DNA from: Heliocidaris erythrogramma
Lineage: Eukaryota; Echinodermata; Echinoidea; Camarodonta; Echinometridae
Assembly: GCA_025617745.1 (NCBI GenBank)
Contig: CM046864.1
Location: 25,978,199 to 26,042,198 of the forward strand
Length of the DNA stretch: 64,000 bases
Reading direction: 5' to 3'
Shown: piece after piece, positions 401-63,473 of the stretch
Numbering within the stretch: position 1 is the stretch's first letter
Layout of the letters: each line of letters begins with the position of its first letter
Notes under the pieces: model-generated
Seen by the model: the letters and a program-made list of their open reading frames with translations, nothing else
Told to the model about the DNA's origin: nothing
Database searches by the model: none
Program-made: the position numbers and the translations under genes

Positions 401-756
401 CAATGTTGGAAAAGATATTTACAAAAATGAAATCCGTAATTTACTGTTGATTCTCGCGAAACCAGCTATCGGAGTCATTGTGTACATTTCCTGGTCGCCG
501 CGGGCGCTGACATCTCCCCAAAAGAGTTTTGTCCTCAAAAATTCGGTCCCTATGGCGTACACGGAAAAGTTCCGATTTTCTGTGTGCGCGATCGTAAAGA
601 TCGATGTGCCCTTGCGATCCCGAGTTTCTTCGTGGACAAAAATTATATTGGCCGATTTTAGTCTAAGACATCGGCAGTTTGTAAACAACACGCGATCGCG
701 AAACAAATCGGCGGGGATTTCTCCGGTTTTGGACAAGATTTTGACTTTGGATTTTG
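401..756 (-). CDS. exon-like ORF of unknown function in the inverted repeat (left arm)
   Basis: Inverse copy of the 1248-1603 segment. Acceptor form AAATATTTACAG before 756 and donor GTGAGT at 395-400 are both kept. Amino acid changes relative to the right arm are few (for example T to I after KSAN, R to G after ETRDRK, R to G before FARIN), though the reading frame closes near 419, shortly before the donor. No family recognised. Confidence 0.35.
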
Positions 757-1247
757 CTGTAAATATCAAAAGTTCTTCCTAACGGCCATTTGAGGTAGGA
801 GTGAGATTTTTAAGGGCTGAATTTGAAAGCAAGTATTTAAAATATTTATCTTATTTTCCCCCCCATACCTTTAGTACATGCGACAGAAAATACCAACTAT
901 TTTACAGAAATGTACCCGTGAGTGATTTGAGGTAGGAGTGAGATTTTTAAGGGCGGAATTTGAAAGTAAGGTATTTAAAATATTTATCTTATTTTCCCCC
1001 CATACCTTTACTACACGCGACAGAAAATACGAACTATTTTTGCATTTTGTATTCGTAGTGGTCAATATGACCACTATTCCACTCCCGGGTACATTTCTGT
1101 AAAATAGTTGGTATTTTCTGTCGCATGTACTAAAGGTATGGGGGAAAAAATAAGATAAATATTTTAAATACTTGCTTTCAAATTCAGCCCTTAAAAATCT
1201 CACTCCTACCTCAAATGGCCGTTAGGAAGAACTTTTGATATTTTCAG

Positions 1248-1603
1248 CAAAATCCAAAGTCAAAATCTTGTCCAAAACCGGAGAAATCCCCGCCGATTTG
1301 TTTCGCGATCGCGTGTTGTTTACAAACTGCCGATGTCTTAGACTAAAATCGGCCAATACAATTTTTGTCCACGAAGAAACTCGGGATCGCAAGCGCACAT
1401 CGATCTTTACGATCGCGCACACAGAAAATCGGAACTTTTCCGTGTACGCCATAGGGACCGAATTTTTGAGGACAAAACTCTTTTGGGGAGATGTCAGCGC
1501 CCGCGGCGACCAGGAAATGTACACAATGACTCCGATAGCTCGTTTCGCGAGAATCAACAGTAAATTACGGATTTCGTTTTTGGAAATATCTTTTCCAACA
1601 TTG
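1248..1603 (+). CDS. exon-like ORF of unknown function in the inverted repeat (right arm)
   Basis: Open for 118 codons between an acceptor (GATATTTTCAG before 1248) and a consensus donor (TTG then GTGAGT at 1604-1609); entry phase 1, exit phase 0. The protein includes KILSKTGEIPADLFRDRV, LFTNCRCLRLKSAN, FVHEETRDRK and FWGDVSARGDQEMYTMTP. It is basic, has two Cys and no signal or membrane segment. I do not recognise the family. The antisense frame is also open, so coding is not certain; it is favoured by the splice signals at both edges and by near-identical translation of the left-arm copy. It may be an exon of an unidentified transposon or a captured host exon. Confidence 0.4.
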
Positions 1604-3410: not shown

Positions 3411-3700
3411 ATCTCATTGAGGGCTTTACGGCATCCACGTCCATGAAAACGAATGTACATGTACATGTATCTGTTAATTGTCATACCAAATTGATATTGC
3501 GCGCAATAAACTCTAATCATTGGTGCTTGCTGAGTTGCGCAGATGGCTCTGTTAACTTTACGCGGGCACAGCCATCTTTGAGCAATCAATAACCAATGAC
3601 TTGTTCTGATTTTGATTTGTTATGACAATTAATTAACATCGTTTTAGTAACATAAAAAGTTGACATAGTTTTCAAAATACGGCCCTGACGGGTAACCCGG
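3365..3700. repeat. poly-G tract of about 32 G with flanking interspersed repeat
   Basis: A G-run at about 3378-3409 is followed by a segment (3478-3690) that matches 13430-13626: both contain AATCATTGGTGCTTGC, CAGCCATCTTTG and end near TTTTCAAAATACGG. It is a member of a family whose ends read like CCGTATTCTGAAAA. Confidence 0.7.
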
Positions 3701-14951: not shown

Positions 14952-17900
14952 CTGTGAAACAAAGAGATCATATAATTCAAGTGTACATCCCTGATAGCAG
15001 AAAGTGTTAAAAATGACGTGATATTTACGTCGTGTTTTCGTCTTTTTTACGTCCTGTAATTACGTCAATAAGACGACAACTTGCACCAACGCAAGACGTC
15101 AAGAGGACGTCTTATTTTGACGTCATCTCTACGTCTTCATTCCTCTTCCCTGATAGCAGAAAGTGTTAAAAATGACGTGATATTTACGTCGCGGTTTTCG
15201 TCTTTTTTACGTCCTGTAATTACGTCAATAAGACGACAACTTGCACCAACGCAAGACGTCAAGAGGACGTCTTATTTTGACGTCATCTCTACGTCTTCAT
15301 TCCTCTTCCCTGATAGCAGAAAGTGTTAAAAATGACGTGATATTTACGTCGCGGTTTTCGTCTTTTTTACGTCCTGTAATTACGTCAATAAGACGACAAC
15401 TTGTACCAACCCAAGACGTCAAGAGGACGTCTTATTTTGACGTCATCTCTACGTCTTGTACACTATAAAACTACTTTTATGGGCATGTATAGTGACTGCA
15501 CCTGAAATGCTGTTTAAAGCACTTGTAGTGTGCTAATTTACCAGCAAAAAAATGTGACCGTGGCGAGCCTCGAACCAGGTTCCGCTGATTGAGAGGCGCT
15601 GACGTTACCGATGGACTAACGAATGCTTCTTGCAATCCAGTTTAGTCATGGGAGTCAAGTAGATAACATGAACTATGTGGAGTCGTAAATTCACTATGTA
15701 ACAATATGATCTGCTCTAAAACGTACAATGTGAGTTAGTCTAGCGGTAATGCCAGCAATTCTCGATCAGCGGACCCTGGTTCGAAGCTCGCCCAAATCAT
15801 TTTTTTTAATGAATGTTTAGCAGTTTAAGGAGCCGGTCCAGCTCCCGTGAAAGTGCTGAAATAGCATGCTGTGTGCATTCAATAGCACTGTGAGTGCAGT
15901 CCCTATGCATGCCCTCAAAAAGTGCTATATACAGCACTTCAGTTTTTACAGTGTACAGATGACGTCAAAATAAGACGTCCTCTTGACGTCTTGCGTTGGT
16001 GCAAGTTGTCGTCTTATTGACGTAATTACATGACGTAAAAAAGACGAAAACCACGACGTAAATATCACGTAATTTTTAACACTTTCTGCTATCAGGGATA
16101 ATTATGTCGTCGTAGCCGATCTCCATGCAGGCTGATGAGCATGAGACAGCTCGGGGAAAGTAGGATTGGGAAGTGAAGTTTTATTTCACTGCTTACTCAC
16201 TGGAACTGGGTGGTTCCTGGATTAACCCCAGTGGGAATGAGATATCAATTCAGTAGCCAATGGGTTAAGCTTTTAACCCCCCTCCCCCCCCCCCCCCAAA
16301 AAAAAAAAGAGAGAGGAGGATGGCATTTTTGTTTTTTATATTCTTTTTTTGTGTGTCTAATGGAGTATACATGGTGTGCGAGACTCAGCAGTTGTAAAAA
16401 GGACCATTTTCCCCACAAGGCATTGCACGGACATGCCTCATTAACCCGGGTGCCCCATTTCCTTTAAAACAATCGAGTTGTTACATTAAAGATCAGTGGA
16501 TGACATAGCATATTTTGGAAACAAAGTCTTTACCCCTTTAAGCATGGTAAGCCACAATATATGCTACGCAAACGCACAGTATCCCTTTATACTCCACTAC
16601 CCCATAATTGGAAAACGGAACTACGTCTAGACCTAATTTTTACAAGCCATATTGGATAAAATCACTCTGATCCAGGAAGGATGCTGATACATCATTAGCC
16701 TCTTGTCGAGGCCCTGGCGCTGTTGAAATCCTTGGCGATATGGAGGCAAAATTTCTGGCGAGCAAAGCAAGCCAGAAAGACCGAGGCCCTTGCGCCGAGG
16801 GCCTCTTGACACCCGACCTGAATTATATATTCATGAGGCACGATTTCCTACTGAATTATGCATGAAAACGTGAATAGTTAGATAACCGCGGCGATCGCCC
16901 AGCAAATTGGCCAATGATATCTCAAGGATTTCTTACTTCAGTGCTGGACTATTCTATTATGCTGAGGACCTTTCTTTTTTTTGCTTGTCAGAGAATTTGG
17001 GACTGAAAAGGGGACACTAAAACTAAAATGCTGAGGGGGCGGGGGGGGGGGGGGGGGGGGGGGGGCTTGTCAGAGAATTTTGGACTGAAAAGTAGGCACT
17101 AAAATATGCTGAGGCCTTTTTATATTTTATATTTTTTGCTTGTCAAAGAATCGTTCCCAGGCGCCTGACTTACGCTTCAAATGGATCTAGCATATTTTTT
17201 CTCAATTTAGCATAATTTGGGACGACACTTGGCAAAATTCCGATTTTGAGTTGTGGCAACACTGGACCGGCATTTACTCCGGCTCGCAATGAGTAACTTG
17301 AAGGCAAATTGGTCGTCATGCAGACATGCACACTTTGAAAGTCCTACAGGTATGCCACAATACGACTGTGTGGAAAAGAAAAGCATAGGTTTTTGCTTAC
17401 CATGCACGGATGTTAAACACACCACACCTGCATCATGGGAATGTTCACAATCACTGGTTCCCCAACCATCATGTCTGCAGTCATTCAGAGTCGCCTCCGT
17501 TCCAGAGCACTCCACACTGTCCAACCAGATGGGTCCAGTTCCCTCGCCGTAAATCATGGCGTCACCAACATCCATCGCCCCGGTGAAGCCCAGCTGTTTG
17601 CAGACCACTGTGGCGTCATCGAGTCCCCACCTATCCGAGCAGACAGTCCCCCATTGGCCGTTGTAAGAAATTTCCACGCGACCTTCACTGGCTGAACTCT
17701 CCGTACCAGCTAAACGGACAGTAAAGTCTTCTGTAGAGAGGGATCAAAACATGTCAAAGTTATATTAAAGCTTGTTATATTCCACATACTGAGAATTTTG
17801 CTGTTAGATTGGTCAAAAGGTAATCACGTGATAAAACGTAGTTTTCCCCATATCAATTGACAGAGAAGAAAAGTTCGTGACCTCGACGGAATAGTACCTA

Positions 17901-20900
17901 TGTGTTTCGCTGATCTCTTCAGTCCATTACAGAGTCACAATGCGTTATCAATATTTGGGTACGCGCGAAATGAAAGTGCATGACCTCTACGAATAGTCAA
18001 TTGAAAAGTGCGTAACCTCTACGAATAGTCAAAATGGAAAGTGCGTGACCTTTACGAATAGCTCCATAGGCGTACTGAAATAAGCGCGCATTGCCCAATC
18101 GCGCGCTTAAAATGATAAAACAATTGTGCGCACCCAGGTAGGGCTACGGTTTATGGTGGTTAATGGTGGTTTTAACATCTTTTATGAATTTATTCGGACC
18201 TAAATCATAAATGTCTTTTTCGAGAAGCAGAGAATAATTGTCTTTCTCGTACCAGTTAAATGTTTCAGATGCGGAATATAAAGCAAATAATCACCTTTTG
18301 ATTTCCGGCGATGAGACGTACTATCACTTCCGCGGCGATCTGAATGTATACGTTATCTTTCCTCAGCTTCGCTTCGGAAAGATAGCTACATCCAAATCGC
18401 CTCGGAAGTGATAGTTTGTCCCATCACCTTCACCAACGGTAATTATTTGCTTACTATATCACAGTCCGTGCCGATACATCAAATCGGCGAATTATGTATA
18501 AACGCAGAACTAAAATGGAAGGGAAGAAAAACAGCAGGCCTGTCCCCAACCCTTACGTGCACACATACGCAAAATCGGATTTGGTTGATTTTTTTTTTCT
18601 CGGTAAAACACTGAATAGGCCTATATTTTAAGTGAACATGCTAAATTTAGTGATAGGTTTAATTAAATATATTTGATCGGCCCTATGCGGTAAACATACA
18701 CTATGTTAGCAGAACTGTGAAGCAAAATAAGGATTTAGGTATGTCATTGATATACTCATTTATATATTTTCACAAAGGAGCGAGTGTAAAGCAAATGACT
18801 ATGCTATTGTGGCTATCCACATCTTGAAATTGATATTATATTACTCCTCTTTCCAGTCCTAAAATTTTCTTACGTTCATTTCGCTCAGTGCTGCAGATAA
18901 CAGAGGCATCTTGTGCGTGATCACAGCCGGTGTTTCCAAATCCGACATGGCCGCACATCTCTAGGGATGTTTCCGTGCCGGAGCAAGAAACCTCATTGAT
19001 CCAAATGGGGCCCGAGCCACGACCGTAAAACGAACCCCGTGGCGCATCCGTCGCATCTGCAAACCCAAGTCGCCTGCACACTACAGTTGCGTCATCCAGA
19101 TCCCAGGAATCGTCACAGATGGTTCCCCATTGGTTCTTGTAGTAGATTTCGACTCGGCCAGCATACGCGAGACTACCCGCTCCAGACAAACGTAAGATGT
19201 AGTCATCTGGTTATTAAATGCACAAAATGCAATGTAGGTTTAACTTGTCTTCATTCTCGCCTAAATACAAGGATATCTTGAGCTTGTAGGCCTATCTTTG
19301 AAAAAAAAAAAATGTTTTCAGTATTATTGGCAAAACCACTATCTATATAGCCCCCTGATCTTCCTGATGCAGTTTTAAATTGATTCCCTAGATCAACGGA
19401 ATTTCATGACTTAAAAGGTGCGATGGATGTTACCCCCGTCGTCCTGTAACTTTAAAACCGATTCATTAATGATTGCTACCTGAAGCAGAGGAAAGTCATT
19501 TGTACAACATTTTAAAACCCATAGCGACAAATTAACCGGTTATCTGCTGATGAAAGTTATGCTATCATCAACTTCATAATTCTTTTACTTATGTTCCCTT
19601 TTTACATTCCATGATGCATGGGTGAAAGGTCATGGAGCACCGCCAATAAAGAATATTCTAAAATACATAACATGCAAAAAGTATGCCATCTAAACGTTTA
19701 GAAATTTCGTGGAAATTTTGGGTCATTTGTGACATGCTAGTTTCATCCACGCTGGAAACTTGCCATGCTCTCTCTCCGTACTGCAAACTGCACCAGCATC
19801 GTTGCGATGGGAACAGTCTCCTGTATTTTCCCATCCACCGTTGACGCAGGAGGCAAGATAGACTTCATTCCCACTGCAATCAACGTCCTTCATCCAGATG
19901 ACGCCGGTCCCCTTTCCAAAGTGTGACCCGCTGGTCGCCCTTTCGGCTCCACTGAAGCCGAGTTGACGACATGCAACGGACGCATCGTCTAGTCCCCATC
20001 CAGCGTCACATATGGTGCCCCACTGTCCATTGTAGTTGATCTCTATCCGTCCCTCAGAGTTAGACGATCCTATCAACCGAACAGCAAACTCTCCTGGTCG
20101 ACAGAAGAAAAAAAATATTATGCTTATTTAGGTAAGGTCAGCCTAAACATCTAGGAAAAACAAATCTTAAATGATTGCCATTCAAGTAAGAACATATTTG
20201 TATTCACCAGATTCCAAATTATACAAAACCATTTCTTAGATGTTCTCTGTAGGTTTCCATGGTGAGTATTTATAATTCAAGGCTTTCGGTAAAACTATGT
20301 GGGAGCCTCTTTGAAAAGAGCTGTTGATATAAGCTTTCGTGGAAAAGAACCCACTTATTTATATTAGGTGTTAACATGGTTTAGAGGAATTTAGGATAAG
20401 TAAAAGGAAAGGAAAGAAAAGGAAAGAAAAGGAAAAATATGATAGTGGAATGAAATAAAAATAAACACTTACATTATAATATTTTTGGTTTTTGTTTTCG
20501 GTGCTTATACACAAAAAAATGAACTGAAATGGACAGAGGAAAGAGGAAAATGGGAAAAAGTTGTGAGCCGGTCACAGAATTTGAGAGTGTAGTTCTGAAA
20601 AAAACTGTTTGTATTCCTCGGCAGAGTAGTTCTAAAAGAGATTTTCGAACTACTTTAATCTTAAGGGAGGGAGTAGGCCTAAATCTGTCTCGACGCGTTT
20701 AGAACAGTGTGCTCTGATCATCGTCAGGAGATTAACTCCAGGGAAACTGCAGTGCGGCGAGTATTTATGCATTTGTTCTCACTAATGCAAGCCCGTAACC
20801 AGGGTTTCTAAAGGGGTGGGTCGTTTTGGGCAAAAGCGGACCTTTTTGTCCTTGCTAGGGGGGTCCGATTAAAGGTGTGTGTGTTTTTTTAATGAAAAAT

Positions 20901-23900
20901 CCGACCTCAGCCCAAGAAGGGGGGGGGGGGGGGGGGTCGTCCGACCCCTCCGACCCCCCCCCCCCCCCCAATCTGGCTACGGGCCTGTAATGTGTTTAGA
21001 GTGCGAACATCGATCATGTCGAAAGTTCTGTATCAGATTATCCATTGACATATCATGTCATACTGACAAGCTTATTTCTGATATGTCAAAGAGAACAAGA
21101 ATCTAACTGGCCCATCTATTTGATCCCTAACTGTTGATAGTCAAACATTAAGGAAAAGGACCCTAAAACACGTCATGCATTCCGTTCTTTAGGAGGTCAA
21201 CAAACTTACTTAGCATCCCAGGGTCTGTTGAACACCGAACACTGACATCGTTCCCATGATCACATGAAGTGCTAACAGTTCCAAAACCAGGGAGGTTGCA
21301 CTCGTCCAATCTTTCTTCGCTTCCTGTGCATTCCGGATTCTCCAGCCATACTTCCCCCGAACCAGCACCGTACAAGGAGTCGGTGTCGTAACTGACGGCG
21401 CCGTCAAATCCAAGTTGCTTACAGACCACTTCAGCGTCATCGCTGTCGAAAGACTCACCACATATAGTTCCCCACTGGCCTGCGTGGAATATCTCTACTC
21501 TTCCAGCAAGAATCGAGCTGTCTGATCCTACCAACCTTATTGACATGTCATCTTGATAAGATATAATTGGAAAATAAGCATTTTCTTGAAAAGGATTTGG
21601 TCAATAAAAGGGAAATTCCGATGTCTGTTTGTTGCAAATTGTCATAGCATCCATGCATTTAATACTCACATTAGTATATTATTTAGATCAGGCTAAAGAA
21701 TTGGCTATATCAAGATAAATTTGTATGTGTTCTCTAGATCTACTATTTCTTAAAGGCCAAGTCCACCTCAATATCAAGTTGATTTGAATAAACAGAGTAA
21801 AATTAAACGAGCATAACAGTAAAAATTTCACTGAAATCGGATGTAAAATAAGAAAGTTACGGCATTTTGAAGTTTTGCATTATTTCATGAAACAGTAGAG
21901 CATGGGCGGTATGCAAATGAGTGAACCGATGATGTCACACACTCACTTTTCCTTATGTATTCAATTTATTATCACATCTATAAAAATTGAAATATTTGAA
22001 ATTTCATATAATAAAATACATAAGGAAAATGTATTTTATTATATGAAATTTCAATTATTTCAATTTTTATAGATGTGATGATAAATTAAATACATAAGGA
22101 AAAGTGAGTGTGTGACATCATCGGTTCACTCATTTGCATACCGCCCATGCTACGCATATCACTGTTTCATGAAATAATGAAAAACTTCAAAATGCCGTAA
22201 CTTTCTTATTTTACATCCAATTTCAGTGAAATTTTTACTGTTATGCTTCTTTAATTTTACTCTGTTTATTCAAATCAACTTGATATTGAGGTGGACTTGG
22301 CCTTTAAAATACGACAATGAATTCGGAAATACGGGGAATAAATTCAGAAGTCACAAACCCGTTTCATTTGAGGAGGAACAGACTACCCCTGCATATTGAC
22401 TGTGATCGCAGTTATTGGTGCCCCAAGATGCGTGAGGACAGGAAGCAAGGGTATCATCACCAACAGCACATCGAACATCGTCAAGCCAAATAATCCCTGA
22501 GCCTGACCCGTATTGTCCAATATTAGCAGTCGACGGTCCTGTGAATCCAAGTTGTTTGCAGACCACACCTGCGTTGATATTGCCCCAGAGGTTTCCGCAC
22601 ACCATACCCCAGCGTCCCCCGTAGTTAATTTCTACTCGACCCTCAGACGCAGATGATCCACGTCCAGCCAAACGTATGCTGTATTGATCTTTGATAGAAA
22701 TAGAGTAAACCTTGAATAGAGTGTTAAAAAACCTACATCCAATATTATATACCTAATTGTACCATACATAAGATGCTCTTAACAATTAGGTGAGAAACTT
22801 TCATGTTCACAATAGTCACAGATTCTAAATATCATCACCTCTGTTATGGGAGTTCATTCGGTGATTTTACAGTATCGTAAGGGAAATATTACAAGAACAA
22901 TAATACATTGTAATGACAGTAATGATGATTAAAATGATAATCATGATTAAAAAAAGAAAGAAATAATAGCAATGATAACAAAAAATAATATTAATAACCA
23001 TTATTAATAAAATATAACTAATAGATGACAATACAAGAAATAACTGTGTGGCGGACAACACGTTGAAAAAAATATAGCTTAATCAAGTTAATGCGCGTTT
23101 TGAATTCTCGCTACCCCAAATACGCAATTTCGCCAACAGATGGCGTTTGTAACGCAAACCACGTATGCGCAGTGCTGACAATATCCCGATTGGGTCGACA
23201 AGTGTTTGTCTTTTTGCATTGAAAATGTACACAGGTATTACAAAAATCCTCGAGTTTGAGTATAAATTAACCGACATGTTTGAAACGATACCATGATTTA
23301 TTGAGACAATTGGTCGCATTTTCAAAATTTGAGTGGTTTATGTCATGCGATCCAAAAATTAAAGGGAGCGACAAGTCACAATCTATGGGCGGTTTTACAG
23401 TTGGCTGCTCCTTTCTCTGGATCAAAGTTCAAAGCGACTTCAATGTATCGCACGCAGCTAAGAAAAGTTCGCACATTGACCCAAATTTGAGTAAACAAGA
23501 TCGCGCGTTCTTTATTCCAGTATTTGAATCTCATTGGTCGGTTACGTATGTAGGGATTCGAGTTAACGATCACGCGAGGAATTCTGCAATAACATTCCTT
23601 CGGTAGCGCACGATTGGACCTGATTGTATCCGAATTTCCCGAGTCAGGCCAACTGGTCAGGCCCATGGATTACGACTTGCCACCTTTAAGCATTTTAGCA
23701 CTCACTTTATTCATAAGCCGTAGTATTTCAATACGGACCGGAAGTGAAGTTGACGAAGATGCGGACCATTTCCATGCATAATATTGCCCTCTACGTCGAA
23801 AATTGCATATTTGAGGGGGCGAGAATTGAATACCGCCTCGGTATTCAAGTCAAAACGCGTATAGCGTTAGCAATTTAATTAGCATTTGGCGTGGCTAAGT

Positions 23901-26900
23901 AAAATTAGTATTCATATGAAATCTAAGTACTTTACTTTAGCAAGCCTATTTCAAGGCAAAATACAATAGCCATTGTGACGTCACATATCCAGTATACAAA
24001 TATTGACTGCTCATTAAAGGTTCACTAAATTAGCGAGAAAATGGGTGCTCTTTCCATGTAGATTTGCCTTCTAATCACGAATCTGCCAATCGATTGTCCA
24101 AATTATGTCTCGTTTTGGCGAAAAAGGGGGAAAAGTAGAGGTTTTGGGACCTTTCCTTAAAACTCGTGAGCTGATTGGCTAACCCCAAGTGACGTATGAA
24201 AAGTAAGAGGCACAAGATCTGCAGGCTGCAGCATATAATATTGTACACAGAATGCGGTATTTGACCCCTCTGTTCAACGGACAATTTATGAAAAAAGGAA
24301 ATTAATCAATATAATCTTAGGAGTGAATAATCATTAGCAATATATTTTCTACAAGATCAGAAAACGCTTTTGCCCAAATATACAGCTCTTGTTTTGTTTT
24401 TTAGCTTTTCTTTTGAACAATGTTCTCATCCATCTGAGCTTGCCGAACGAAAGTTTTGCATTGGTCATAAACGCGTGCACAGCCGTTTTATGCGTCTGTA
24501 TGTACAATGTCCTACACATTTTTAGTACGGCAGTGACTATGTTCCCCTCGTACATAGCGACTGGTGAACGCTTTTGTTTTGTTTATTTCACTTACGGGTT
24601 TTTTTTTTCCTTCGCTTTACATAATACGTTAGTACTGACTTAGATTTTGGCTGAATTCGAGTAACTTATATAGAGAGAGGAAAAGTGCCCGCGATTCCGA
24701 GTTGGAGGACTTTTCTGAGCCATGCAGATACGAACTCTGATTTATCAGATGATTTATCAGACCCCGAAGGCAAAGAAGCTCGAGTGGCGAGTGGCAAGGT
24801 GAAATTCGACCATAATTATTATATGTTTGAACCCCTCGCAGAATACGGTGAAGGGCCGTGGGTGAAGTTACTCCAAGGGAGCTCCAACGCGTTGGAGCTC
24901 CCTGGAGTTACGGGTAAAGTAGACCGAAAATGCTGTCTCTCGTTCGACGAACGAGTGACAGAATTTTCGGTCTACGGATGAAGCTGCTGCAGCTGCTGTC
25001 GTTGAAAAACAGATTGGAAGACTTGACTCCAAGTCTGATCGTTGGAATAGCTGAATCTTTTAGCTAGCTTATCCTTCTCTTCATGCCAAATTCGGAATAC
25101 AGGCCAGGATCCTCAAAATCATCTTCGGCAAAGTGATCGCTGCAGATTGTACTCCACTCACTTGGCCGGCCCTTGCCACTCTGCCCGCGTGAGCTTTACA
25201 TTTGCGACCCACAATTTCCGTAGATTTTCATCTTTAGGAAAATGATGTAGGCTTACACCATTTTTAGGGGTCTTGCTACAGCCCGCAACTATACACCGAT
25301 TAGCCATTATTGATGAAACTGTGTCCCCAAATCAAAGTTATTGTGAGGAATTAAACACACGAAAATACGCAATGCAAATGGTCGATGCGGTGAATATCAT
25401 GCTCGGCACCGGGCTAGGCCTGCCGGGGGCCTCCGGGCGCGCACGGTATAGGTTAGTGGAATATTTTCCCTTACTTTTCATGCGTCACAGATCACATGAT
25501 CACGATGTCGCTTCGATGGGTTTTTTTAGGGGCGGGGCTTATGACTGTGTAAATCAGCAAAAATGCACTTTTCAGATGATTATAAAATGTGACTGAATGC
25601 ATACAAAATTGTGTGATGGATATTTTTTGGCTCCTGATGACACCTTCCTACGAAAAATGGGCAATTATTTTTTTTATTTTAGTGACCCTTTAAGTTGATG
25701 GTGGAAATTATCACTCCTTCGGGGGTGTTCATACTGACCCTTCGCCTCGGGGGTGATAGAAGGGTATGAACACCTCCTTGGGAGTGATAATTTCCACCAC
25801 CATCCGATTACAGAACAGTCCATATTTGATTTGTTTTATATACCTCCTCCTTTTCATTGATTCATGAAGGTCTAGCTATAAGTCTAGCTACAGTGCCGTC
25901 ACCAGCTTTTTTCAAGGGGGGGGGGGGTGCCTTTTGGAAAAAAAGACAAAACTTACCAACTCCAATGTCAGGCGGTGGTGCTGGTGGCGCAGATGTGAGC
26001 TGTTCGACATTACACAATACTGCATATAAGATTACCCCCCCCCCCCCCCCCCCCCCCAAAGAAGAAAAAAAAATCCTTTTTTTTTTTGTCTGGAAGGGGG
26101 TGCAGTGCGAATGCACCCCCTTCCAGACCAAAAAAAGGATTTTTTACGCGTTATATCACAGGTTTTTGGCGTACTATCATTTGACGTTCAACTGATAGAA
26201 CGCCAAAACCCTCTGATGCAATGATAGATCGAGATGCGCTGTGTCATGTGATGTAGTTTTGACCAATCAGTGAATAAGAATCTATGTATGTAGACCGATC
26301 GGCAAAAGGGTCCGATAGACCGACAATAAATAGTGGATAAAATGATAAGTTGGTAAAAATAAGTGGTTAAAATAAGTGGGGCGTTATGTTTTCAGATGTT
26401 TTCAAATGTGGGGGCGGGAATACCCTCCCTCTCCCACTTGTCATGCCTGAAAATGGGGTTCCAACCAAAGAAAAAGCAAAAAAGGAAGAGGCTGAAAAGG
26501 AAAGAAGAAAAGAAAAGAAGGGAAAGAAAACAAAAATTCAAAAACTTCGCTCACTAGCATTATTAGGGTTATTTACCATTGCCCATTATATTTTCATTAT
26601 TGATATTAGTTATTAATATAATCGCCATATGTATATATATATAAACCAATGGCAATTATATTAATAATTCATATGCTTATGGAAGTTATTTGGTTTGCAT
26701 TATGAATCTCGAGCTAATGTTATATATTTCTACTAAAAGAATGTTAGCAACATAACTGAAAGGAATCGAGCAGCAAGTTGACCTAAAGGGGCTAAAGAGA
26801 TGGATTTTCAGAAATAATGGCCTGTGACAATAGTCTCTTCCCAATATGAGAACGGAAGATGCCGATAACATATTACACAGATTATGAGAACGGAATATCA

Positions 26901-29240
26901 ATACGCTAGAGTCTATTCTCAGGATACAATTTTTTTTTCCTTTTTTTTTCTCTCTCTCTCGTTCGCTCGCTTTGCTCGCTCATACAATCAAGAAACTAGG
27001 CCTAGATTGTTTCTTGCAGCAAGCACCTCTTACGTCCTGCAGCAACAAGAAGCCCGAATATCATAATATTTGGGCGGTGAGGTATCCGACTATTCTCGAA
27101 TTCCCCCCCCCCCCCAAAAAAAAAATGGTATAATTTACCCGACAGAGTCCACAGACTAAAATTCGCCACAAGGTAGTAGTATGGGTGTAGTCGGTGAACA
27201 TTAAAAAAATATAACAGGTGACATCATAGCTGGTAGGAAAATATCACCTGACAACCCTAAAAAATGGAAACGCCCCCCTCCCAAGAAGGTGGTAGGGCCT
27301 AATTGAAACAATTTCATTTTTATCGGTCAGAATCTTTTGTCAGAATCTTATCTTTGTTACCTTTAATGAAAATTCAACTATAAAGTGTGTACCCCATAAT
27401 ATTTCTTTGTTTAAAAAATAACACTTGTGTTAGAAGGGGACGCCCTTTCCTCAGCTTGCTCCACTAGAAAAAAATGCTTCGGCATGATGGGCCTCGGGGC
27501 TTTAGTGTGCACCATATAATTAGATTTCCATGTTTCAAAAAATGGTCAGCGTTCCCCATTGCCAATACATCGGTTTAGTGGCAACATTAACCGGGGGAGG
27601 GGGGGGGGGGGGCTGAGCTGCATGGGTGGACCACCCCCGCCCCACTGTGATGATGATGATGCTCTGATAAAAATACTTTTAACATGTTGAAAATGTATAA
27701 AACAAAATTTTCAAATAAGTTCCCCATTTCTTTCTTTTTTTGAGGGGGGGGGGGGGGAGGGTGGGCCTACAGACCTAGTGCATCGGTTTATTATTAAAAA
27801 CTTATTGTATCCACTTATTTTACCTTTTTTACGTTATTGTCGGTCTATCGGACCTTCTAACTATCGGACCCCTACCGAACCTTCGGACTATCGGACCCTT
27901 TTGTCGATTCGGTCTATCGAACCTTCTATCTATCGGACCTTCTGACTATCGGACCCCGTTGGACATTCGATCTATAGAACCTTCGGACTATCGGACCCTC
28001 CGCCGATTCCGGTCTATAGAACCGTCTGTCTATTGGACCCTCTCGTACATTCGGTCTATCGAACCTTCTATCTACTGGGTGTCGGTCTATCGGACCCGCT
28101 AAACTATCGGACCTTCTAGCTATAGGGCTGTAACCGCGTTGCGTATAATGTGCGCGCAAAAGTTAAAAGATGATTTAGAAAAGGTTGGGTATTTTTTAGC
28201 GGTCGATTAACTTGGAAAAGATAAATCACCCATGGCACTCTTTTATTGTATTTTTCATGTTAAATGTTGCGCGTTCAATCGCAACGATGATAATTATGTT
28301 TGATTAAATGAGAATCACCTTATCCAATTTGATACAAAGGAGCAGTCTCGGAGTTGATTTTCAACGTTTTGTGGATGCTTGAAATCAAGATAGTCAAATT
28401 ATAGCACAACCGCCTGATTTCATTTCACAGCGGCTCGCGCAGGAAGCGGTTCACATTTTGCTACGTTGAAGCTGGAGCGCGTACACCATTTTTCTTTGTT
28501 ACAGCGCATCTGATTGGTGGAAATGGACTAAAAAGAAGTGAAGCATATTCTGACTACGCTGGACTTAATTGAGCGCTAAGAGAGCTTTCAGAATACCGAT
28601 TTGGAGGTGTATTAGCGCTGAATTAGGGGATTTATGAGGAAAGTTTAAATGATAGTTTTAAGTGAGCTTTCCAAATACCACCTCTAGGGTAAAATACTTA
28701 GCCAAATGATTCAGAAAAATACCAAAGTTGCTTCAGTATTTTATTTCAGCCCAAAACTAAGTAAACTACTCATATTTAAGTATTGAATTGAATAGTAATC
28801 TGTTATTAGTAACTAATCTGCCACTGGCTATATGCTCTAAGCGAGAATTCGTCTTCGCTTGCTGATTTCTGTAGTTGATATTTCACCATATATTAACTTA
28901 CAACTGAGAGAATACCGAGTACACCCGACTCCAACATCATATGAATGCGAGCACGTCGTTGAAGCGAAATTCACATGAGGGCATCCGACAAGGGTCTCCT
29001 CATTTCCAGTACAGCCAGGATATGCCAATTGTAGCCAGACAGGACCCCATCCCATGTCGATAAATTCAATTCTTCTGCTCGTATACGCATTCCTGAAACC
29101 AAGTTGTCTACATACGATGTGTCCTTCTACGATGTCAAAATAACTGTCGCAAATCGTACCCCATTGACCATTAACAAGCACCTCTATTCTACCTTCATCA
29201 GGATTTGAGGTAGTACTCACCAAGCGTACTGGGTTTTCTT
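14746..29240 (-). CDS. multi-SRCR type I membrane receptor gene, 5'-incomplete
   Basis: Gene-level entry for six SRCR exons plus a terminal transmembrane exon, all on the minus strand. Exons (5' to 3'): 28902-29240, 22359-22688, 21210-21551, 19764-20093, 18874-19206, 17401-17730, 14746-14951. Every internal exon begins and ends in phase 1, so any subset splices in frame, as expected of domain-per-exon receptor genes. Introns are 6213, 807, 1116, 557, 1143 and 2449 bp and are largely filled by repeats. The likely role, known from the family, is recognition of microbial or modified-self ligands at the cell surface of immune cells; large SRCR families are expressed in echinoderm coelomocytes. 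The signal peptide and possibly further SRCR domains lie upstream. The exon chain is inferred from phase, order and orientation, not from transcripts. Confidence 0.8.
15554..15626 (-). ncRNA. tRNA-like module (minus) in composite element copy 1
   Basis: Minus strand contains TTAGTCCATCGGTAACG (A-box-like) and GGTTCGAGGCTC (B-box-like) with CTC in the anticodon position, most like tRNA-Glu. The acceptor ends do not pair convincingly, so it is not called a functional tRNA. Confidence 0.6.
15730..15799 (+). ncRNA. tRNA-like module (plus) in composite element copy 1
   Basis: TTAGTCTAGCGGTAATGCC (A-box-like) and GGTTCGAAGCTC (B-box-like), again CTC-like anticodon. About 80 percent similar to the minus-strand module at 15554-15626, so the two are an inverted duplication of one tRNA-derived ancestor. 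Confidence 0.6.
16098..17400. other. intron DNA, poly-C and poly-G tracts
   Basis: Lies in the intron before the TM exon. C-run at about 16282-16297 and a 27-bp G-run at 17039-17065. A short inverted pair GAGGCCCTGGCGC / GCGCCGAGGGCCTC spans about 16709-16805. No coding feature. Confidence 0.55.
17401..17730 (-). CDS. SRCR domain exon (last before TM exon)
   Basis: 330 nt, 110 codons. Acceptor CCCTCTCTACAG before 17730; donor GTAAGC at 17395-17400. Phase 1 in and out. The translation starts (E)DFTVRLAGTESSASEGRVE and has the SRCR landmarks GQWGTVC, VVCKQLGFTGA, GTGPIWLDSVEC, LNDC, TSDC and DAGVVC. Six cysteines and LGF in place of the LGC of group B place it in group A. Length and spacing match a complete domain of about 100 residues. 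It lies 2.4 kb upstream of the TM exon. The overlapping plus-strand ORFs are antisense shadows. Confidence 0.9.
18284..18447. repeat. hairpin repeat in SRCR intron
   Basis: Left arm GCAAATAATCACCTTTTGAT... with ACTATCACTTCCGCGGCGAT, right arm with ATCGCCTCGGAAGTGATAGT-like inverse and AATTATTTGC. Loop at GCTTCGCTTC. A small palindromic MITE without coding. Confidence 0.65.
18874..19206 (-). CDS. SRCR domain exon
   Basis: 333 nt, 111 codons, phase 1-1. Acceptor TTTAATAACCAG before 19206; donor GTAAGA at 18868-18873. The domain opens (x)DYILRLSGAGSLAYAGRVE, then shows NQWGTICDDSW, VVCRRLGF, GSGPIWINEVSC, SLEMC, NTGC and DASVIC. All six group A cysteines are present and the domain is complete. 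The neighbouring exons on both sides are also SRCR, with introns of 557 bp (upstream) and 1143 bp (downstream). Confidence 0.9.
19764..20093 (-). CDS. SRCR domain exon with a GC donor
   Basis: 330 nt, 110 codons, phase 1-1. Acceptor TTCTGTCGACCAG before 20093. The expected phase-1 boundary falls at CATG followed by GCAAGT (19758-19763), which is a GC-AG type donor with otherwise consensus bases. A GT alternative, TGCA followed by GTACGG, lies 15 nt upstream in the same phase but would remove residues present in the sister exons. Landmarks: GQWGTICDAGW, VACRQLGFSGA, GTGVIWMKDVDC, YLASC, TGDC and DAGAVC. Six group A cysteines, complete domain. Confidence 0.87.
20399..20440. repeat. GGAAA-type simple repeat
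   Basis: Short array of AAAGG/AAAAGG units in the intron upstream of the 19.8-kb exon. Confidence 0.7.
20670..20770 (-). mobile_element. possible Penelope-like element tail
   Basis: The minus strand reads CTGACGATGATCAG followed by TTCTAAACGCGTCGAG, a layout resembling the conserved tail of Penelope-like elements (compare 46572-46602). No coding part is visible nearby. Confidence 0.3.
20915..20972. repeat. paired poly-G and poly-C tracts
   Basis: G-run (about 17) followed 18 bp later by a C-run (about 15), able to form a G:C hairpin, in an intron. Part of the poly-G interspersed family. Confidence 0.8.
21210..21551 (-). CDS. SRCR domain exon
   Basis: 342 nt, 114 codons, phase 1-1. Acceptor ATATCTTATCAAG before 21551; donor GTAAGT at 21204-21209. 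It opens (x)DMSIRLVGSDSSILAGRVE and continues GQWGTICGESF, VVCKQLGFDGA, GSGEVWLENPEC, LDEC, STSC and VSVRC, so six cysteines are present. It is slightly longer than its neighbours because of a loop before the fifth cysteine (PGFGTVSTSC). The upstream intron of 807 bp is about two thirds foldback repeat. Confidence 0.9.
21754..22303. mobile_element. TTAA-flanked foldback element in SRCR intron
   Basis: TTAA at 21750-21753 and 22304-22307. Arms AGGCCAAGTCCACCTCAATA and inverse, each about 260 bp and nearly identical, meeting near 22030. No coding capacity. It makes up 550 of the 807 bp of the intron between the 22.4-kb and 21.2-kb exons. Confidence 0.9.
22359..22688 (-). CDS. SRCR domain exon
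   Basis: 330 nt, 110 codons, phase 1-1. Acceptor TTCTATCAAAG before 22688; donor GTTTGT at 22353-22358, a weak site shared in form with the exon at 62227. It opens DQYSIRLAGRGSSASEGRVE (first residue split), then GRWGMVC, GVVCKQLGFTGPS, GSGIIWLDDVRC, LASC, TNNC and AGVVC. Six group A cysteines are present. The run ANIGQYGSGSG is shared with the 62.2-kb exon, making these two the closest paralogues in the window. Confidence 0.88.
22689..23358. other. intron DNA, no feature recognised
   Basis: AT-rich intron sequence upstream of the 22.4-kb exon with ATT/AATG-rich microsatellite-like stretches near 22900-23030. Confidence 0.5.
23363..23685. mobile_element. TTAA-flanked MITE, copy 1
   Basis: TTAA at 23359-23362 and 23686-23689. 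Ends AGGGAGCGACAAGTCACAAT and inverse of GATTACGACTTGCCACCT. Very similar to 47631-47957 over its full length. The open frames through it are not conserved coding. Confidence 0.88.
24018..25689 (-). mobile_element. Kolobok-like DNA transposon, THAP-bearing, copy A
   Basis: TTAA at 24014-24017 and 25690-25693. Terminal inverted repeats AGGTTCACTAAATTAG (left) and AGGGTCACTAAAATAA (right, read inward). A THAP-type zinc-finger reading frame lies on the minus strand near 25036-25307. TTAA duplications together with a THAP domain are characteristic of the Kolobok superfamily. At 1.67 kb it lacks room for the catalytic part and none is seen, so it is non-autonomous. Copy B, in the opposite orientation, is at 60005-61655. 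A long inverted repeat with GGGAGCTCCAACGCGTTGGA is internal. Confidence 0.8.
25158..25307 (-). pseudogene. THAP zinc-finger fragment of copy A
   Basis: ATG at 25305-25307 opens MANRCIVAGCSKTPKNGVSL, then HHFPKDENLRKLWVA and TRAEWQGPAK, matching the C-x4-C and W-anchored first half of a THAP domain. The frame closes at TGA (25158-25160). The remaining half (WSTICSDHFAEDDFEDP, with the C-x2-H pair) is in another frame after a 4-nt offset, and an in-frame TAG precedes the AIPTI motif that corresponds to AVPTIF. Copy B has the same two defects. Confidence 0.8.
25694..25806. repeat. hairpin repeat abutting the Kolobok copy
   Basis: Arms GATGGTGGAAATTATCACTC and the inverse (GAGTGATAATTTCCACCACC) around a centre with GGGTGTTCATAC and TATGAACACC. 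About 110 bp, directly after the TTAA of 24018-25689. Confidence 0.8.
25807..26290. repeat. poly-G/C repeat block
   Basis: G-run at about 25917-25927, C-run at 26035-26057, followed by an inverted pair GGAAGGGGGTGCAGTGCGA / GCACCCCCTTCC at about 26092-26127. No gene. Confidence 0.65.
26291..28130. mobile_element. foldback element with CGGTCTATCGGACC satellite
   Basis: The left end (GGTCCGATAGACCGACAATA at about 26309) is the inverse of 27836-27856 and the right part is an array (27838-28130) of CGGTCTATCGGACC-like units separated by CTTCTAACT-type spacers. The region between includes a purine tract, poly-C/G runs at about 27104, 27600 and 27746, and no gene. The minus ORF over the array (27926-28159) is only translated repeat. 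Confidence 0.65.
28131..28901. other. intron DNA, no feature recognised
   Basis: Sequence flanking the 28.9-kb exon, moderately AT-rich, no repeat family recognised. Confidence 0.5.
28902..29240 (-). CDS. SRCR domain exon, most 5' of the clustered set
   Basis: 339 nt, 113 codons, phase 1-1. Acceptor CTTTTCGCAG before 29240; donor GTAAGT at 28896-28901. It opens (x)ENPVRLVSTTSNPDEGRIE and continues GQWGTICDSYF, HIVCRQLGFRNA, WGPVWLQLAYPGC, LVGC, STTC and VGVGC. Six cysteines are kept, but the acidic and aromatic surface residues differ from the other exons (GSGxIWLD is replaced by GWGPVWLQ), so this is a diverged domain. It is separated from the next exon by a 6.2-kb repeat-filled intron. Confidence 0.88.
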
Positions 29241-29331
29241 CTGCGAAAAGAAAAGAAAAAAAAAATGATGGAAACAAAATTTCATAAAAATGCGAAAGTC
29301 CCAAGATCCCGGCATGGTTGTGCGTAACCTA

Positions 29332-62032: not shown

Positions 62033-62226
62033 ATATATGCACAATTCATTGTCATAGAATGCTACTTAAATTAGAATTTTACATAATTATTGTTATGATT
62101 TATTAAAAAATATTGACATCGTCATATAATATGAATAAAACGGAGGTACTTACCTCATTTTTCAGCGCTGGTAATGACGCGTGCACATTTATATTGATTG
62201 CAATTGCCGCGACAGAATTCCCAAAC

Positions 62227-62559
62227 CTGATCCAGTTGTGGAGGTGGTACAGACAACGCCTGCGTCTTGACTGTGATCACAGTTGTGGGACCCCCATTGA
62301 AGGTGGCTGCAGTCAGCAAGAAAGTCATCATCGGTATTACAGTTAACATTGTCTAGCCAAATAGTCCCAGACCCTGACCCGTATTGTCCGATATTAGCTA
62401 CTGAAGGTCCTGCGAATCCCAGTTGTTTGCAAACGACTGCTGCGTTTACGTTGTCCCAGTAGTCTCCGCACACAGTACCCCAACGCCCCGCGTAGTTAAT
62501 TTCTACTCGACCTTCAGATGGATATGATGTATTTCCCTCTAGACGAATGGGGTACTGGT
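62227..62559 (-). CDS. SRCR domain exon, isolated
   Basis: 333 nt, 111 codons, phase 1-1. Acceptor CAATTCATTTATAG before 62559; donor GTTTGG at 62221-62226 (weak). Landmarks: QYPIRLEGNTS, GRWGTVC, VVCKQLGFAGPS, ANIGQYGSGSG, IWLDNVNC, LADC, SHNC and DAGVVC; six group A cysteines. The domain is complete and very similar to the 22.4-kb exon. Strand and phase would let it join the cluster 33 kb downstream, but it could equally belong to a second SRCR gene. A foldback repeat starts about 60 bp downstream (62164) and a composite element about 105 bp upstream (62665). Confidence 0.87.
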
Positions 62560-62928
62560 CTATAAATGAATTGTAATGAGAAATAAATCCGGAGTAAACA
62601 TTAAATCTATAGGTGATATGTTTTATTATCATCATACAATGATCTCACAGTTTTTTGATAATGTCCCTGATAGCAGAAAGTGTTAAAAAATGACGTGATA
62701 TTTACGTCGTGGTTTTCGTCTTTTTTACGTCCTGTAATTACGTCAATAAGACGACAACTTGCACCAACGCAAGACGTCAAGAGGACGTCTTATTTTGACG
62801 TCATCTCTACGTCTTGTACACTGTAAAAACTAAAGTGCTACTTTTAGGGGCATGTATAATGACTGCACCTGAAATGCTGTTTATAGCACTTGCAGTGTGC
62901 TAATTTACCAGCAAAAAAAAAAAAAAAT

Positions 62929-63001
62929 GTGACCGTGGCGAGCCTCGAACCAGGTTCCGCTGATTGAGAGGCGCTGACGTTACCGATGGACTAACAAATG
63001 C
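62929..63001 (-). ncRNA. tRNA-like module (minus) in composite element copy 2
   Basis: Nearly the same as 15554-15626: TTAGTCCATCGGTAACG and GGTTCGAGGCTC on the minus strand, CTC in the anticodon position. Confidence 0.6.
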
Positions 63002-63104
63002 TTCTTGCAATCCAGTTTAGTCATGGGAGTCAAGTAGATAACATGAACTATGTGGTGTCGTAAATTCACTATGTAACAATATGATCTGATCTAAATCGTA
63101 CAAT

Positions 63105-63172
63105 GTGAGGTAGTCTAGCGGTAATGCCAGCAATTCTCGATCAGCGGACCCTGGTTCGAAGCTCGCCCAAAT
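63105..63172 (+). ncRNA. tRNA-like module (plus) in composite element copy 2
   Basis: Nearly the same as 15730-15799: TAGTCTAGCGGTAATGCC and GGTTCGAAGCTC. Both box motifs are unchanged between copies. Confidence 0.6.
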
Positions 63173-63473
63173 CATTTTTTTTAAATGAATGTTTAGCAGT
63201 TTAAGGAGCCGGTCCAGCTCCCGTGAAAGTGCTGAAATAGCACGCTGTGTGCATTCAATAGCACGCTGAGTGCAGTCCGTATGCATGCCCTCAAAAAGTG
63301 CTATATACAGCACTTCAGTTTTTACAGTGTACAGATGACGTCAAAATAAGACGTCCTCTTGACGTCTTGCGTTGGTGCAAGTTGTCGTCTTATTGACGTA
63401 ATTACAGGACGTAAAAAAGACGAAAACCACGACGTAATTATCACGTAATTTTTACCACTTTCTGCTATCAGGG

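Follow-up and report, generated by a model that had tools for sequence, protein, structure and literature searches.

The locus considered here raises the question of what kind of mobile element carries, between its own inverted ends, a pair of sequences resembling tRNA promoters, and whether these sequences serve the element or are merely carried by it. Two copies lie in the window (the whole 64-kb stretch of DNA that was analysed). The first-pass annotation had set their limits at 14989-16097 and 62665-63473, and the shell ends, CCCTGATAGCAG.../...CTGCTATCAGGG, stand at exactly these positions. The reading that we favour, with reasonable though limited confidence, is a two-layer non-autonomous DNA transposon of the MITE type with promoter-like modules as cargo. 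In the surrounding DNA, five SRCR-domain open frames are found on the minus strand between 17 and 30 kb (window 17207-29304), and copy 2 begins 30 nt past a sixth such frame (62189-62635, minus strand). Another inverted repeat, at 419-1612, holds near-identical open frames at 447-782 (plus strand) and 1222-1557 (minus strand). The parts of the two copies are as follows.

14989..16097, no strand assigned: composite element copy 1 (shell and inner element), from arm alignment, flanked by a 2-nt target duplication, AT
14989..15307, plus strand: a further pair of tandem shell units (the first begins at 14989, the second at 15148), lying outward of the innermost left arm
15308..15458, plus strand: innermost left shell arm, an ACGTC-rich terminal inverted repeat (motif count on the consensus)
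15459..15955, no strand assigned: inner palindromic element with TACACTGTA-type ends, copy 1 (left end slightly deleted here)
15546..15552, minus strand: T-run of the left module (an A-run on the plus strand), four or more T in 61/61 copies
15566..15576, minus strand: B-box-like GGTTCGAGGCT of the left module, B pattern present in 57/61 copies
15608..15618, minus strand: A-box-like TAGTCCATCGG of the left module, one mismatch to TRGYNNARNNG; at most one mismatch in 59/61 copies, exact in 0/61
15736..15746, plus strand: A-box-like TAGTCTAGCGG of the right module, pattern match, 56/61 copies
15778..15788, plus strand: B-box-like GGTTCGAAGCT of the right module, pattern match, 60/61 copies
15800..15807, plus strand: T-run of the right module, four or more T in 61/61 copies
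15956..16097, minus strand: right shell arm, inverted
62665..63473, no strand assigned: composite element copy 2, a single shell unit per side, from arm alignment
62817..63331, no strand assigned: inner element of copy 2, read from the sequence and the alignment
62941..62951, minus strand: B-box-like motif of the left module of copy 2, pattern match
63111..63121, plus strand: A-box-like motif of the right module of copy 2, pattern match
63153..63163, plus strand: B-box-like motif of the right module of copy 2, pattern match

For the outer layer, the left and right shell arms are 146 nt long and 97% complementary, and thus form terminal inverted repeats as in the MITE class, in agreement with the terminal-inverted-repeat nature ascribed to the element in the first pass. 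In the genome searched (1.064 Gb in 26 contigs, of eukaryotic type), a 38-mer from the right module was matched at 2566 places and a 33-mer from the shell end at 3656 places, both with up to three mismatches and with controls of 0. Sixty-one copies were examined: the two in the window, 20 from sampled places and the 39 that matched best across the whole genome. Of these, 53 retain both ends. A 2-nt target duplication flanks 43 of these 53 complete copies, and a 3-nt match flanks only one; the duplicated dinucleotides are of eleven kinds (AT 10, TA 10, AA 6, TT 5, plus seven others). Such a flanking duplication is what insertion by a cut-and-paste mechanism leaves behind. The consensus, built from 40 copies (41 were examined, and L046 was left out as too short), is 800 nt long with a longest open frame of 52 codons, so that the family is short, non-coding and high in copy number. 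The composite is therefore an abundant non-coding terminal-inverted-repeat element of the MITE type.

The two shell arms differ in their make-up. In copy 1 the left arm consists of three tandem units (the innermost starting at 15308) and the right arm of one inverted unit; among the 53 complete copies the left side has two units in 33, one in 17 and three in 3. On the right side, a second unit is absent from all of the 48 loci listed, in which certain places are entered twice. The motif ACGTC occurs 10 times over both strands of the 146-nt arm, against a control mean of 1.0, and ten occurrences were reached in 0 of 2000 controls. Among these repeats the consensus arm also holds one perfect TGACGTCA, a CRE/ATF site (window 15118-15125, in the first unit). 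As RNA, the arm at window 14989-15134 folds far better than expected (z -3.87, with 0/200 shuffles as good), owing to short inverted repeats inside it. The same 18-nt shell end followed by a different interior gave 19 matches with up to three mismatches, counted by pattern alone, against 4 in the control, and no transposase source for the shell ends was found.

Within the shell, the left half of the consensus aligns with the reverse complement of the right half across shell, linkers and modules, leaving only the central ~100 nt as unique sequence. Arm-to-arm similarity exceeded all of 500 block shuffles for the linker and the module, and did not do so for the spacer. The element is thus a single imperfect palindrome with one module in each mirrored arm, instead of two modules dropped into a shell. 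In copy 1 the modules form an inverted pair of 74 nt (15547-15620 and 15734-15807, 78% complementary) that points outward; the earlier description of modules facing each other has to be reversed, as their orientation is divergent. The first pass had also overlooked the inverted arms outside the modules, the T-run after each B box and the existence of a core without its shell. When the two arms are aligned with each other, the 59-nt module has 0 gaps and the 115-nt linker 12 gap events (p ~0.007 if gaps were evenly spread), while mismatches number 10 in the 59 module positions versus 11 in at most 106 linker columns, i.e. more per aligned base in the module. A gap-free module between diverged arms hints that spacing may have been kept, as opposed to plain cargo.

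The spacing between the A and B boxes of the modules is that of tRNA genes. A strict pattern of both boxes at tRNA spacing is matched in the 64 kb by the two right modules only, compared with 0.04 matches per 64 kb in Markov controls, and the B box alone is matched by the four modules only, compared with 1.54 expected by chance; this rarity is suggestive and not overwhelming, because the window had been scanned with an eye for unusual features. The claim that motifs resembling A and B boxes occur in every module holds under the strict pattern for the right module and for the B box of the left, whereas the left A box carries one mismatch. Both modules are present in all 61 copies, each followed by a T-run of at least five. 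The full type-2 promoter layout (both boxes at the distance found in tRNAs, followed by a T-run) is seen in the right module of 55/61 copies and, with one A-box mismatch allowed, in the left module of 56/61, and both units are complete on these terms in 50/61, so that the motifs are indeed a property of most of the copies examined.

This layout may be explained by modules that are working divergent type-2 Pol III units, in which TFIIIC would bind the A and B boxes and two outward RNAs of ~75-90 nt would run to the T-runs. The element might profit from this, for instance if chromatin thereby stayed accessible to the transposase. The rarity of the box pair, the constancy of the T-runs, the large share of copies with both full units, and the fact that the module is the sole gap-free part of the diverged arms speak for such a role, as does the identical layout in a copy of the inner element that has no shell (L111, see below). 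On the other hand, the boxes are intact in 37, 35, 36 and 31 of 40 copies versus 33.3 for an average 11-mer window, i.e. they are kept no better than the rest of the element, which gives no indication that individual copies are under selection. In addition, the left A box is never exact in the 61 copies, and module RNA folds at chance level (z -0.16, -0.04 and 0.33 versus shuffles). It appears unlikely that the modules work in this way.

An about equally unlikely explanation, in our estimate, is that the boxes are a coincidence and that ordinary palindromic MITE sequence happens to resemble a tRNA promoter. Searches for tRNAs lend it some weight. ARAGORN found none at default settings, nor in mitochondrial mode over the core; with lowered thresholds it made 7 and 4 weak calls there, some on the modules and others elsewhere. 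The Rfam tRNA model (RF00005) was absent at E<=10, including in sequences of 101-116 nt. A true tRNA pair was rejected on the ARAGORN default result, the absence of the Rfam model and the chance-level folding. When the four modules were freely aligned with 12 tRNAs, p values reached only 0.003-0.019; tRNA-Asp was best for three of the four (in one case on a par with Val), and for the remaining module Glu and Gly shared the top score, so that the tRNA-Glu identity originally assigned to the modules is not upheld. Moreover, a window-level chance of 0.04 is modest, and neither the second arm nor the second copy is independent of the first. Elsewhere in this genome, tRNA genes are arrayed in tandem over a long stretch at C12:18858807-18889677 (L068, L070-L097), with a spacing of mostly ~280-310 nt; this array holds 59 of the 63 scored tRNA matches, and all 27 genes that ARAGORN called in the three of its loci that were scanned are tRNA-Lys (TTT).

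What tells against coincidence is that the box pair, its spacing and the T-run occur together in both arms, and that the modules, to differing degrees, resemble a SINE head and a 7SL-like locus of the same genome. An ordinary tRNA-derived SINE head (reverse complement 856-935 of locus L099), a type scored at 94-100% identity in 40 places from 2156 first-look candidates, is similar to the left modules with p of 0.002 and <0.001, but to the right modules with p of only 0.043 and 0.077. This head is likewise not called a tRNA by Rfam (E<=0.1); the silence of the tRNA model is therefore weak evidence and does not exclude a SINE-like origin of the modules. A second relative, L118 (C12:11379000-11379500), has a 7SL/SRP-like 5' domain (34 bits, below the cut-off of 70) followed by a B-box-like stretch that closely resembles the element's module. 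It matches three of the four modules with p<0.001 (beyond 1000 shuffles) and the fourth with p 0.006, and outscores the 12 tRNAs for three of the four, although it was chosen by a pattern search over 1 Gb that favours such a match. The modules are probably cargo derived from a Pol III promoter, with a tRNA, a SINE head or 7SL as the candidate source. In a SINE, a transcribed body follows the Pol III head, and the retroposed tail comes with a target duplication of variable length. The element itself differs in that it terminates in inverted repeats, is flanked by a duplication of 2 nt and has its T-run directly behind the head. A microRNA precursor was considered as well and rejected, as the match to MIR8007 (28.2 bits, E 0.0057) is far under the cut-off of 195 and is due to the hairpin only.

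The order in which the two layers were joined can be approached through cores that lack a shell. Twenty regions chosen by an exact right module, a sample that favours young copies, contain 21 exact cores, of which 20 carry the shell (some of them truncated) and one does not; the latter is a fragment, the first core of L067, which also lacks the inner ends and is 97.6% identical. This agrees with the proposal of the first-pass annotation that core and shell were already joined when the composite began to spread, the core lying within. A pattern designed not to match the standard module gave 109 genome places (control 0), and ten of these loci were read. Six are composites (L109, L110, L112-L115), one is the 7SL-like locus described above, and three are inner elements by themselves: L111, a whole inner element alone inside a CTA repeat with the same module layout as the composites, and L116 and L117, partial elements from which the shell is absent. 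Thus, the core does occur on its own. The partial element L117 (C13:9933200-9934000) sits within a tandem repeat of ~721 nt, with four module matches at that spacing.

Wider pattern searches suggest that such loci are more numerous. Inner ends with a non-shell flank were matched at 410 genome places (control 0) by a pattern that misses L111, L116 and L117. A strict pattern of an exact B box, the inner end and a non-shell flank (controls 0) gave 143 arms as pattern matches, 86 of the left type and 57 of the right. Left and right arms at the correct distance, with both flanks non-shell, pair up into whole elements at seven places (on C7, C10, C11, C15, C19, C20 and C21). Two right/right pairs with non-shell flanks, likewise making whole elements, at C12:23061896-23062464 and C14:1322394-1322947, are apparently more symmetric palindromes. 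Among 77 exact arms in the 61 composites, one passes the non-shell pattern because of a shell deletion (L063); scaled to 2566 places, and as an estimate from this single case, composites with a damaged shell would account, very roughly, for 40 arms among the 143 and for as many ends among the 410. With regard to a possible placement of the inner element in Tc1/mariner, a group with a TA target duplication, both inner ends carry TA in the composites and in L111, although the search patterns demanded TA and only three shell-less loci were read. Substitutions relative to the inner consensus amount to 0.4-2.4% in 22 composites, 4.7% in L111 and 3.2% in L117, which is in keeping with a shell that is younger than the inner element it enclosed; the fragment L116, at 1.2% only, does not follow this trend.

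No equivalent was found for the shell. The predicted empty shell site has 0 matches in the genome (up to three mismatches), and the search for a shell arm with another interior returned one match, a composite with a rearranged left shell, by a pattern that would miss some interiors. Ten shell ends for which no exact core was on the list (L098-L107) were chosen, and proved to contain the core in seven cases and to lack it in three (L099, L101 and L103). These three are two-unit left shell ends broken at different points with no common sequence behind them, and their interpretation as an autonomous family was dropped, since they are one-sided and share no interior. As a complete shell without a core is absent from these results, it is only for the inner layer that a separate existence is shown, and it is on this layer that the nesting order depends. 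The last alternative, in which the core arose from two independent SINE insertions in opposite orientation, could draw on the likeness of the left module to a SINE head common in this genome, but it is rejected and carries a negligible probability, as the inverted homology runs past the modules to the inner ends, a T-run right behind the head would halt a transcript before any SINE body, and both modules occur in all 61 copies and in L111 rather than being confined to the two window copies.

Returning to the two-layer MITE, the following course of events appears plausible. The older layer would be a palindrome of ~505 nt ending in TACACTGTA-type sequence and bearing in each arm a sequence derived from a type of Pol III promoter (A box, B box and T-run). 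It would have come to sit inside a second pair of long inverted ends, the 146-nt CCCTGATAG shell. A transposase encoded elsewhere would then bind the shell ends, multiply the composite and produce the 2-nt target duplications. In some transposon families subterminal repeats are transposase sites, and the ACGTC repeats of the shell may have this function. The tandem left units could act as alternative left ends, which would give rise to copies with one, two or three units, and the inner element with its modules would at present be carried along as a passenger. The palindrome, the inner element without a shell, the copy number, the target duplication and the boxes and T-runs of the copies are observed directly, and from there we infer the order of the layers, the action of the transposase in trans, the origin of the modules and their present passenger status.

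A stronger version of the working-module hypothesis holds that both arms contain a self-terminated, outward type-2 Pol III unit that functions and has been kept through at least two rounds of mobilisation, the older TACACTGTA round and the younger shelled one, the benefit being that transposition is promoted, or silencing averted, by short RNAs or by bound TFIIIC. This version is quite doubtful. If the modules do work, paired start and stop signals for Pol III, or else sites for TFIIIC, would have been distributed in their thousands by a cut-and-paste element over a one-gigabase genome of animal type. TFIIIC sites can serve as chromatin boundaries. Even without working modules, the data suggest that a MITE came to be carried by another set of transposon ends, and that a mirror-image pair of promoter-like sequences was kept through both bursts.

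With respect to known systems, the foldback transposons are similar in their long inverted arms with a variable number of tandem arm units. They include Tetris of Drosophila virilis (PMC4079207), which has tandem repeats in its arms and is said to be the source of a satellite, and the TU elements of sea urchins, also of foldback type with tandem arm repeats. As Tetris reportedly fed a satellite, so here a shell-less piece (L117) lies in the ~721-nt tandem array. The present family differs in its Pol III-like modules and in that, among the copies listed, only the left arm has its units in tandem. Twin SINE of Culex, a retroposon with two tRNA-related regions in direct order, likewise has two tRNA-related modules per repeat, whereas here they are inverted and lie in a DNA transposon. 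EnSpm/CACTA elements have CACT(A/G) termini, a target duplication of 2-3 nt and many short subterminal repeats. The short duplication and the numerous subterminal repeats (here ACGTC) are shared with them; however, the ends here are CCCTGATAG and not CACT, and no transposase was found. In the open-licence literature searched, judged by titles and the beginnings of abstracts, no palindromic MITE with paired Pol III modules was encountered.

The closest system is MER6/MER6A, a Tc1/Mariner MITE into which a SINE (V-SINE) was inserted before the composite spread (PMC6887750). Both are non-autonomous terminal-inverted-repeat elements that carry SINE or SINE-like sequence and multiplied as a composite. 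With this precedent, SINE cargo does not by itself make a DNA transposon a new kind of element, and the first-pass claim of a new architecture has to be narrowed to that extent. MER6 has one SINE insert, 24-bp terminal inverted repeats and a TA target duplication (PMC6887750), whereas in the present family both halves of a palindrome contain a promoter-like module, the ends of the surrounding second shell are 146 nt long, and the 2-nt duplication has no fixed sequence. The composite is distinct from MER6 in its mirrored pair of modules with T-runs, its second shell and its family of shell-less inner elements.
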